Shown: positions 47,303 through 50,571 of the stretch, in pieces
Numbering within the stretch: the stretch's first letter is position 1
Layout of the letters: each line of letters begins with the position of its first letter
From: Rubripirellula reticaptiva
Lineage (GTDB): Bacteria > Planctomycetota > Planctomycetia > Pirellulales > Pirellulaceae
Length of the DNA: 64,000 nt
Assembly: GCF_007860175.1 (NCBI RefSeq)
Contig: NZ_SJPX01000001.1
Span: forward strand, 62,001-126,000
Reading direction: 5' to 3'
The notes under the pieces: model-generated
Told to the model about the DNA's origin: nothing
Seen by the model: the letters and a program-made list of their open reading frames with translations, nothing else
Database searches by the model: none
Position numbers and translations under genes: made by a program

Positions 47303-47995
47303 CGCTGAGTCCTTTTCCTGACTCGATTCAGGTCTCGTTTTCGGATCAGGTTGGCCAGCGTTCAAACGATCAATTTTCCTTCGATTGGTACGCCAAAACA
47401 GCGAACCCCTCACAAGAGGTGCGAGATCACCACATTTGGCCTGATGGAAGCAGTTTATACCGGTCGCAACGAATTCGCCACGCGCACGATCGTTGGAATG
47501 ATCAGACGACGAATATTTGGCTATTTTCGCCCAGGCCGCAAAGCTTAGCAACAGCCCGAAAATCCCCCAGAACACTGATTAGACGCCCGCTCAACGTCGA
47601 TACGCTTAGTGACCCGCAAACAACACAACGCCGACTCGTGGTCGACGAACCTGCTGTTTGCGACTGACCCAGAAAGGCGATGACATTGGATGTCGTCGTC
47701 TTGTAGCACCAGAAAAACGCAAAGAGGCTGCCCCAAAACCCGCTGTCAATCACGCGGAGCATGGGGCTCTTAGGCCAAAGTAACCAGAGAATATGGCGAA
47801 CAGAGCGAAGTCGACGGGCCGGGTGTCCGCACCCGGCTTGCGAGTGTTCGCTTGGGAAACTCGAGACCTGTCCGACGGCGACTTCGTCCGTCGAACATGC
47901 CTCCGCCCAGTTCTAAGGTGACTTTGAACCAAATTCTCTCAGCGAAATTCGACGGCTGCGAATATCGATCGCACAAAGATTGAGATTAGGGAGAC
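47303..47995. other. Intergenic stretch upstream of Cys-rich gene
   Basis: About 690 bp with no supported gene. It contains a perfect hairpin, GCCGGGTG-TCCG-CACCCGGC at 47818-47837, 168 bp before the start of the cysteine-rich gene. The promoter of that gene must lie in this region; no clear -35/-10 pair was read. Confidence 0.45.
47818..47837 (+). promoter_or_regulatory. GC-rich hairpin upstream of Cys-rich gene
   Basis: A perfect 8-bp stem with a 4-base loop, 168 bp upstream of the start. It could be a leader structure or a binding site; there is no U-run. Confidence 0.35.
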
Positions 47996-48004
47996 GTGGC
48001 TCCA

Positions 48005-49093
48005 ATGAAGCGGACTATCATGACTTTGACCATGGTTCTTGGCTGCACGCTGTGCACTCAGAGCTTTGGCTTTGACCTTCTGGATCGTATGCTCGGTATC
48101 AAGGGCTGTGGCAGTGCCACTAGCTGTTGCGACACCGGCTGCGAAGCCCCATCATGCGGCTGTGAGACGGCGTCGTCTTGCGGTTGCAACGCAGAACCAG
48201 CTTGTGGCGCCGAAGCCGCTTGCGGTGGATGCGGATCAACTAGCTGCCTCGGCGGTTGCGGATTGCTATCAAAGCTCCGCGGCAACGACTGCGGTTGCTC
48301 AGAACCTGCGTGTGGATGCGAAGCACCTGCTTGCGGATGTGCAATGGAAGCTCCGGCTTGCGGTTGCTCGGCTGAACCTACCTGTGGTGCTGACGCCTGC
48401 GGTTGCGGAAAAGCTGGCTGTGGTTTGCTAGCCAAGCTCGGCGGCAATAACTGCGGTTGCTCGGAACCAGCCTGCGGTTGCGAAGCACCTGCTTGCGGTT
48501 GCTCAGCAGAACCAACCTGCGGTGCTGACGCCTGCGGTTGCGGCAGCTCGGGCTGCGGATTGCTGTCCAAACTCGGCGGCAACAGCTGCGGATGCTCGGA
48601 ACCAGCTTGCGGTTGCGAAGTCGCAGCTCCTTGTGGTTGCGAAGCCATTCCATCTTGCGACAGCGGATGCGGTTGCGGATCGAAGAAGCGTTGCGGCGGA
48701 TTGCTGTCGAAGATGTTCAGCAGCACCGGCTGCGGATGTGACGCTGGTTGTGACATGGGCTGCGAAGATCCGACTTGCGGATGCGAAATCGCATCTTGCG
48801 ACAGCGGTTGCGGATCGTCTTGCGGAACCGGTCACGGCAGCCTGATCAGCAAACTGTTCGGCAACTTGCGTAGCAAGGCTGGCTGTGGCTGCGACAGCGG
48901 TTGCAGCAGCTGCTCGGCTCCTGCAGCACCGTCATGCGGTTGCTCAGGCAGCAGCATCAACTACTCGGCACCTGTTGAAACTCATCAACACATCGAAGCC
49001 GCTCCTATGCCACCAGCACCGATCGTTGATCCAAGTGCTAGCGTGACTCAAAAGCGTCGCGTCGTTCAGGCCAGTGCCGTCTTCACCCGCTGA
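48005..49093 (+). CDS. Exported cysteine-rich repeat protein, probable wall/envelope protein
   Basis: A 362-residue protein not matched to a named family. The ATG at 48005 starts a signal peptide (MKRTIMTLTMVLGCTLCTQS); a GTG three codons upstream is possible. The mature chain holds about 60 cysteines, mostly as CGC and PxCGC, with Gly, Ala, Glu and Ser between. A hydrophobic-basic block (GLLSKLRGN, GLLAKLGGN, GLLSKLGGN, GLLSKMF, SLISKLFGN, with a first degenerate LLDRMLGIK) recurs six times between cysteine linkers. The last 45 residues are free of cysteine and Pro/Ala-rich. Planctomycete walls are known to be protein-based and rich in cystine; a disulfide-linked wall role is inferred. It has its own terminator. 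Confidence 0.75.
   Translation: MKRTIMTLTMVLGCTLCTQSFGFDLLDRMLGIKGCGSATSCCDTGCEAPSCGCETASSCGCNAEPACGAEAACGGCGSTSCLGGCGLLSKLRGNDCGCSEPACGCEAPACGCAMEAPACGCSAEPTCGADACGCGKAGCGLLAKLGGNNCGCSEPACGCEAPACGCSAEPTCGADACGCGSSGCGLLSKLGGNSCGCSEPACGCEVAAPCGCEAIPSCDSGCGCGSKKRCGGLLSKMFSSTGCGCDAGCDMGCEDPTCGCEIASCDSGCGSSCGTGHGSLISKLFGNLRSKAGCGCDSGCSSCSAPAAPSCGCSGSSINYSAPVETHQHIEAAPMPPAPIVDPSASVTQKRRVVQASAVFTR
48254..48627 (+). repeat. Tandem repeats in Cys-rich gene
   Basis: Three in-frame units start at about 48254, 48416 and 48551. The middle one is 135 bp (45 codons: GLLAKLGGN block plus the CGCSEP, CGCEAP, CGCSAEPTCGADACGCG linkers); the first carries a 27-bp insertion and the third is partial. High similarity at the DNA level suggests recent duplication or slippage. 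Confidence 0.7.
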
Positions 49094-49138
49094 TAAAGCG
49101 AAGTGAAGTCCCACTGATACCTATCAGACGTGACCGCA

Positions 49139-49180
49139 AAACGACCTGCCGAGGGAAACCTTGGCGGGTCGTTTTTTTTT
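49139..49180 (+). terminator. Intrinsic terminator of Cys-rich gene
   Basis: The stem ACGACCTGCC (49141-49150) pairs with GGCGGGTCGT (49163-49172) with one G-U pair and a 12-base loop, followed by nine T. It lies about 45 bp past the stop codon. This is the clearest terminator in the window. Confidence 0.9.
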
Positions 49181-49347: not shown

Positions 49348-50571
49348 ATGCCCAAAACCATCTTCTTTTCCGTCGGCGAACCCAGCGGTGACCAGCACGC
49401 TGGGCGACTGATCCAAGCGATCCGTAACACCGATCCATCGATCCAGATCCGCGGTTTCGGCGGACAGTCGATGAAAGACGCGGGCTGCAGCGTCGACTTG
49501 GACCTGACCCAGCACGCGGTCGTGGGATTACTCGAAGTCCTGCCCAAGCTTCGCCAGTTCTTTGCCTTCGCCGATCAAGCCGAAGAAGTTTTCCAAACCG
49601 GTGATGTCGATGCCGTTGTGCTGGTCGACTTTCCCGGATTCAATTGGCACATCGCTAAACGAGCCAAGCGGTACGGCATTCCGGTCTACTATTACTGTCC
49701 GCCACAATTGTGGGCTTGGGGCGGATGGCGGACGAGAAAAATGAAACGCACCGTCGATCATGTACTGGCCGTGCTTCCGATCGAAGAAACCTACTTTGGC
49801 GGCGCCGGCATCCCATCGACCTATGTCGGGCACCCGTTCTTTGATGCGGTCGAGCACACTCAATTGGACTCGCGCGTCGTCAATCGCCTGCAAGCGATTG
49901 AACAAACCGGTGCGCCGCTGGTCGCGGTGCTGCCGGGATCTCGTGACCACGAAGTCCACCGCAACTGGCCGATGATGTTGGAATCGATCCGACGCCTGCA
50001 CGCCAAGCATCCAACGGCCAAGTTTATGGTCGCGTCGTACCGCGATCGACAATGCCTGTGGTGCCGGGACCAAATGGCGGCCGCCGATGCTGAATTGCCG
50101 ATCGAGTTTTTTGTTCAGCGAACCAGCGAAGTGATCGAGGTTGCCCGCTGTGCGATGATGGTCAGCGGCAGTGTTTCCTTGGAACTGATGGCCCGACGGA
50201 CTCCCGCGACTGTCGTCTATCGTGTCGGCCGATTCCTGTACACGGTCGGACGATTGCTAGTGAAAACCAAGTCGTTGACGCTGCCGAATCTGATGAGCGA
50301 CCGAGCGATCTTCCCCGAAATGGTTTCCGTCGGATCCGAAGAACCGGCTATCGAGTTTCTGACCGCATCGATCGATGCCATGATCGGTGACGAATTCTAC
50401 TACCAATCGATCCTGCGACAATTGGACAAACTGCGAGCCGTGCACGCTCGATCCGGAGCCTCCAAGCGTGCAGCCCAGTGGATCTGCGAATCACTCGGCA
50501 GCAGACGATCGACCAAGGTAACGACACCGCCGAAATCGCTCGACCACACCCCAATCCGCCGCGCCGCCTAG
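49348..50571 (+). CDS. lpxB: Lipid-A-disaccharide synthase
   Basis: This glycosyltransferase (GT19) condenses UDP-2,3-diacylglucosamine with lipid X in lipid A synthesis at the inner membrane. The 407 residues show the N-terminal VGEPSGDQHAGRL, VVGLLEVLPKL, VDFPGFNWHIAKRAK, YYYCPPQLWAWGGWR, YVGHPFFD, LLPGSR-like VLPGSRDHEV and SGSVSLELMARRTP. All are conserved LpxB blocks. A perfect palindrome (CCGCCTAGGCGG, 50564-50575) spans the stop codon. Its presence supports an outer membrane with lipid A. No other lpx gene is adjacent. Confidence 0.95.
   Translation: MPKTIFFSVGEPSGDQHAGRLIQAIRNTDPSIQIRGFGGQSMKDAGCSVDLDLTQHAVVGLLEVLPKLRQFFAFADQAEEVFQTGDVDAVVLVDFPGFNWHIAKRAKRYGIPVYYYCPPQLWAWGGWRTRKMKRTVDHVLAVLPIEETYFGGAGIPSTYVGHPFFDAVEHTQLDSRVVNRLQAIEQTGAPLVAVLPGSRDHEVHRNWPMMLESIRRLHAKHPTAKFMVASYRDRQCLWCRDQMAAADAELPIEFFVQRTSEVIEVARCAMMVSGSVSLELMARRTPATVVYRVGRFLYTVGRLLVKTKSLTLPNLMSDRAIFPEMVSVGSEEPAIEFLTASIDAMIGDEFYYQSILRQLDKLRAVHARSGASKRAAQWICESLGSRRSTKVTTPPKSLDHTPIRRAA

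Follow-up and report, generated by a model that had tools for sequence, protein, structure and literature searches.

The chlamydial proteins OmcA and OmcB are exported, cysteine-rich components of the outer-membrane complex and are thought to stiffen the envelope by disulfide bonds. In planctomycetes, the closest described systems are the YTV proteins (PF07639). According to published reports, YTV proteins were named the major constituents of Gemmata obscuriglobus walls boiled in 10% SDS (PMC5287468), the top-scoring proteins of a Tuwongella immobilis wall preparation were two cysteine-rich YTV proteins (PMC8567305), and a YTV protein belongs to the essential set of Planctopirus limnophila (PMC10632474). 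In the T. immobilis fractionation, S3, an SDS-soluble fraction, was the only one to yield these two proteins (PMC8567305), and this weakens the view of them as SDS-resistant. The wall of Rhodopirellula baltica is described in another report, citing older work, as a protein sacculus with disulfide bonds (PMC2754498). The work that reported peptidoglycan in planctomycetes included this species (PMC4432640), so protein need not be the load-bearing layer.

The gene compared here with these systems lies in the window, that is, the whole 64,000-nucleotide stretch of Rubripirellula reticaptiva DNA that was analyzed (Table 1), and its product belongs to what we call family A. The 362-aa product contains 62 cysteines (17% Cys), 60 of them in the mature protein, and 19 CGC motifs. 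The original prediction had described a signal peptide, about 60 cysteines in CGC/PxCGC linkers, six short hydrophobic-basic blocks, a cysteine-free tail, and a strong intrinsic terminator, and all of these were recovered. The signal peptide and its cut site were read by eye rather than with a predictor; signal peptidase I would probably cut after G22, which is invariant in all 31 aligned members. The six blocks are five of the GLLSKL type and the one at the mature N-terminus, and three of them sit in an 86-nt DNA repeat of three copies, which are 84% and 73% identical to the reference copy. The gene also contains a 135-nt tandem pair with 85% identity. These repeats indicate that the extra blocks of the window protein arose by in-gene duplication, which would be why it carries six.

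Table 1. Positions of the features at the family A locus, numbered from the first nucleotide of the window
Feature	Position	Strand	Remarks
Motif CGAAGTCG, complementary to apical CGACTTCG of leader hairpin	47806..47813	+	
GC-rich hairpin CGGGTGTCCGCACCCGG	47820..47836	+	CGGGTG..CACCCG form in 13/31 loci
Conserved covarying hairpin, candidate leader RNA	47862..47905	+	27/31 loci; 44 nt
Shine-Dalgarno region GGAGACGTGGCTCC	47990..48003	+	GGAGA in 31/31 and CTCC in 24/31 upstream sequences, counted by eye
Family A gene, encoding the 362-aa exported Cys-rich repeat protein	48005..49093	+	ATG 48005, stop 49091-49093
Signal peptide MKRTIMTLTMVLGCTLCTQSFG	48005..48070	+	Probable cut QSFG/FDLL, read by eye
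N-terminal block FDLLDRMLGIKG at mature N-terminus	48071..48106	+	
Cys-rich region, CGC / PxCGCE linkers	48107..48943	+	
Block GLLSKL, aa 86	48260..48277	+	
Block GLLAKL, aa 140	48422..48439	+	
Block GLLSKL, aa 185	48557..48574	+	
Block GLLSKM, aa 232	48698..48715	+	
Block GSLISKL, aa 278	48836..48856	+	
Cys-free conserved tail, aa 314-362 (49 aa), ending PPAPIVDPSASVTQKRRVVQASAVFTR	48944..49090	+	P337, P339, D342, P343 invariant in 31/31
Intrinsic terminator	49138..49175	+	17 pairs and T-run
lpxB (PF02684)	49348-50571	+	Downstream of family A gene

A lipoprotein is unlikely, as the lipobox-like Cys14 is kept in only 18 of the 31 members (T, A, S, M, L, F or V in the others), in contrast to the invariant G22. 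The tail was also considered as a general sorting tag and this was rejected, with a single match in the R. reticaptiva genome at E up to 10. Fold prediction, one of the checks originally proposed, failed to help: AlphaFold2 with 8 sequences gave a mean pLDDT of 43, highest in the signal helix, and no usable fold, a result that is compatible with a disulfide-dependent matrix protein but is no evidence for one.

At a cut-off of E 0.001, 39 of the 60 genomes searched have a match, the R. reticaptiva genome included, and the open reading frame is therefore not a chance one. Named relatives come from Rhodopirellula europaea, R. baltica, other Rhodopirellula, TBK1r, Rubripirellula, and others. As the original prediction had stated, no family name fits: the window protein had no match in Pfam at E up to 10, in NCBIfam at E 10, or in the PDB, whether its sequence (E 1) or a profile (E 10) served as the query. 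None of the 31 members matched Pfam at E 0.01, and two NCBIfam families were touched by one member each (E 0.05 and 0.077). Judged from these searches, family A is a family without a name or curated model in Pirellula-type planctomycetes. By analogy it resembles OmcA and OmcB, in that its members would likewise be exported, cysteine-rich, and of the same PVC group; the Pfam searches gave no match for it.

The 31 aligned members have conserved ends and 28-73 mature cysteines, and the invariant residues include L25 and L26 in addition to G22 and the four tail residues of Table 1. Repeat number varies between species. A crude block count that may take the tail for a block (most members thus having three blocks besides it) gave 4 in 23 members, 5 in 3, 6 in 2, and 3 in 2, and the window protein had the highest count, 7. 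A second family, B, has a different signal peptide, mostly begins with FGLF(D)KLC, and lacks the tail; all 18 members counted have three blocks. The R. reticaptiva genome contains one such tail-less paralogue with three blocks (L090:3722-4267, at about 37.7-38.3 kb of contig C3). The mature cysteine number is odd in 28 of the 49 members of families A and B.

The relation to the YTV proteins rests on a shared module. Five YTV proteins above the curated cut-off are encoded in the R. reticaptiva genome; four have cysteine-rich stretches between or after the YTV repeats, and the fifth has 5 cysteines in its open frame. An R. baltica protein has eight YTV stretches (E 1.1e-76), and the same frame ends in a family-A-like stretch, ...CEPACGCGHKGGLLKKLFGGCKKSCCDVAPACGC... 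Family A and family B profiles were used to score the four own-genome stretches and the one from this R. baltica protein against 500 shuffles per stretch in which the cysteine positions were fixed and words such as PACGCE were not preserved. For three of the five stretches (two from R. reticaptiva and that from R. baltica), none of the 500 shuffles reached the real score with either profile; the profile A scores were 42.4, 68.4, and 76.5 bits vs shuffle means of 23.5, 25.3, and 31.7, and with both profiles the real scores lay some 4.6 to 12 sd above the shuffle averages. Of the remaining two, the stretch at C4:773k was equalled by 1/500 shuffles with profile A but 104/500 with profile B, and that at C4:208k was marginal (16/500 and 14/500, respectively). 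By this comparison, some YTV proteins carry the CGC/GLL(K)KLF module of family A, beyond composition and cysteine spacing; the module is not among the curated features that define YTV proteins. The likeness thus consists of a cysteine-rich CGC stretch, a GLL(K)KLF block in some YTV proteins, and high codon bias, whereas family A is built of the module and its own tail, without YTV repeats (no Pfam family matched the window protein at E up to 10 or any of the 31 members at E 0.01).

The codon adaptation index (CAI) of the family A gene, 0.759, is the highest among the 36 ORFs of 200 aa or longer in the window (mean of the other 35, 0.655; sd 0.040; maximum 0.753). The YTV genes range from 0.697 to 0.787, the ribosomal-protein ORFs from 0.664 to 0.762, and the family B gene reaches 0.792, all relative to 15 ORFs of the ribosomal-protein cluster, in which L2 was confirmed by a model and the rest were recognized by eye. 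Compared with the same protein in background codons, the bias of the family A gene has a z of 3.2, and three other window ORFs exceed it (3.6, 4.0, and 5.7). The CAI therefore partly reflects amino-acid composition, and the codon bias resembles that of YTV genes.

Downstream, the terminator scan found 3 terminator-like sites vs a shuffle mean of 2.3, and the stem in Table 1 is by far the longest of the 3. Since this 17-pair terminator lies between the family A gene and lpxB on the same strand, the originally predicted one-gene unit is likely. lpxB adjoins the family A gene in 17 of the 31 loci. Five of the loci in which it was not found (L039-L042, L056) were covered with about 6 kb of flanking sequence; the nine others have short flanks only. 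In 26 of the 31 loci a cupin gene, which is divergently oriented in the window, lies close to the family A gene. The three neighbours examined encode LpxB, the cupin, and a PQQ-propeller protein.

Upstream of the gene, alignment revealed a hairpin with the core GGCGACTTCGTCC, about 98-129 nt before the start codon. It has ACTTCGTC in 24 of the hairpin-bearing loci and one change in three, and is absent in L035-L038. Pairing is kept in 90.7% of the cells of the alignment (21 distinct rows) vs 82.6 in shuffles, and 36 cells are changed on both sides vs 12.1 in shuffles (0/500 as high) and at most 10 when the structure is slid. The number of pairs with a double change, 7 vs 5.2, is unexceptional (49/500), and among the 17 pairs there are two that frequently fail to form (in 10 and 8 sequences). 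RNAalifold alone gave 13 pairs, 6 with compensatory changes. Because G-U pairs are frequent, an RNA read in the direction of the family A gene is favoured over a DNA operator; the hairpin model R1 scores 56.2 bits on the plus strand vs 21.2, in agreement with this, although the comparison is biased by its training on that strand. R1 has one match in each of the 22 genomes of the genus searched, own included. Outside the genus it matches 4 of 15 genomes of the family, and among 23 further genomes of the order it gives two weak hits (E about 1e-3) that are probably chance; many of the searched genomes also trained the model. Two loci outside the training set, L108 and L109, have the hairpin upstream of a family A gene. 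The hairpin was not found in Rfam, whose sole match above the gathering threshold in the window is a tRNA; four sub-threshold matches around the gene (E up to 1) were attributed to chance or to the terminator stem. We regard the hairpin as a candidate leader RNA of the family A gene, which may act as an mRNA stabiliser or a sensor.

The upstream region holds other elements as well. The motif CGAAGTCG is present in 24 of the 27 family A loci with the hairpin and in none of the 4 without it, and a pseudoknot between it and the apical loop is possible. The motif hardly varies and gave no covariation; in 26 of the 27 loci the pairing was equalled by at least 15 of 200 shuffles, and where the loop is altered, in the R. 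baltica group, CGAAGTCG shows no compensating change. CTCC follows GGAGA, and pairing of GGAG with CTCC could possibly form a small hairpin at the Shine-Dalgarno region; in L039 the spacer is changed and GGAGA/TCTCC can still pair. The whole leader as a single piece does not fold unusually well (z -1.16). A dispersed repeat as the source of the hairpin was rejected, as the 121-bp stretch has no other own-genome match better than E 0.23, and so was a regulon in which the hairpin would also precede family B or YTV genes, since R1 at E 1 matched none of the family B and YTV loci searched.

The distribution of the two families was compared at two levels. In 246 genomes of the order, taken by us to be Pirellulales, where NCBI taxonomy places R. 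baltica, the profile A1 of family A matches 181 and PF07639 matches 243 (E 0.001), and 181 is an upper bound since the cysteine-rich A1 can also catch family B or YTV linkers. Many of the A1 matches listed cover nearly the whole profile, and they are spread over many families of the order. One genome with an A1 match is YTV-negative (G067, 83% complete, 670 contigs). Because nearly every genome of the order has YTV, co-occurrence of the two carries little information. In a phylum sample of 159 genomes (E 1e-5), A1 matches the own genome only and YTV matches 9; family A is thus narrower in distribution than YTV, and since A1 is missing from 8 of the 9 genomes with YTV, not every such wall needs family A. 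The A1 profile also matches (E 1.9e-6) a DUF6666 (PF20371) protein of R. reticaptiva with a cysteine-rich segment before the DUF (L106:1084-2472, at about 958 kb of contig C5), which could possibly link the cysteine network to another envelope protein.

The resemblance between family A and the YTV linkers could be a coincidence of two sequences drifting independently toward Cys/Gly/Pro richness, and this would fit their low complexity, the weak or profile-dependent results for two of the four own-genome stretches, and shuffles that do not keep words. However, the hydrophobic-basic block is common to both as well, and three stretches stand far above the cysteine-fixed shuffles with both profiles, so that we consider such a coincidence unlikely. 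A place in a specialised structure of the cell surface (a holdfast, a crateriform pit, or a fibre) instead of the general wall would agree with the narrow distribution in the phylum sample and with a gene-specific leader hairpin that suggests special regulation, but the A1 matches in many families of the order and the module common to general wall proteins make this quite improbable.

Like metallothioneins, family A is CxC-rich, and its 17% Cys and 19 CGC motifs might be expected of a secreted, metallothionein-like sponge whose CGC/CC clusters hold Zn, Cu, or Cd outside the cytoplasm. Yet it differs from metallothioneins in its signal peptide, in a variable and often odd cysteine number, which is unlike fixed metal clusters, and in matching no family. 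Pfam, NCBIfam, and the PDB include metallothioneins, and none returned an entry for the window protein; no curated metallothionein family was matched at the cut-offs used. The module common to wall proteins and the identity of the examined neighbours also argue against metal binding, which we hold to be a distinctly improbable function. A wall protein is a stronger reading than either of these two, metal binding or a special surface structure.

We therefore favour as likely that family A is an abundant wall or envelope matrix protein, disulfide cross-linked with itself, with family B, and with YTV modules. The original idea of a disulfide-bonded envelope unit is supported indirectly, by the export signal, the YTV-like module and codon bias, and the lack of a match to any named family; on this basis, family A is probably a YTV-free disulfide-linked wall protein or cross-linker, with location and disulfides both inferred. 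The Sec system would export the protein and signal peptidase I would cut it, after which its CGC/PxCGCE linkers would oxidise outside the cytoplasm and cross-link with one another, with the tail-less family B, and with the like modules of YTV proteins as presumed partners, giving a stronger protein network in the wall. The GLLSKLF-type blocks may serve as packing or docking units or as spacers between the disulfide linkers, and the conserved cysteine-free tail as an end-cap or anchor. In the original prediction, the hydrophobic blocks may also contact membrane or each other. If the hairpin is transcribed, it may regulate or stabilise the family A mRNA as a gene-specific leader. A further idea, which we put forward only tentatively and regard as rather doubtful, is that families A and B form a second, YTV-free polymer in Pirellulales walls, made solely of the disulfide module and docking blocks, in which repeat number would set cross-link density and family A would be under its own leader RNA.

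The protein part of the planctomycete wall and its assembly beside peptidoglycan are an open question. Neither a YTV-free cysteine-rich wall family nor this hairpin appeared in the titles and abstract openings that our literature search covered, a range that leaves key subscription wall studies outside. Concrete, widely conserved proteins without a family model are now tied by a common module to reported wall proteins, and with the conserved gene-specific RNA hairpin upstream of them, both wall composition and its regulation become testable in cultured Rhodopirellula. If the second, YTV-free polymer is true, the leader RNA would be a regulatory RNA linked to the planctomycete protein wall.
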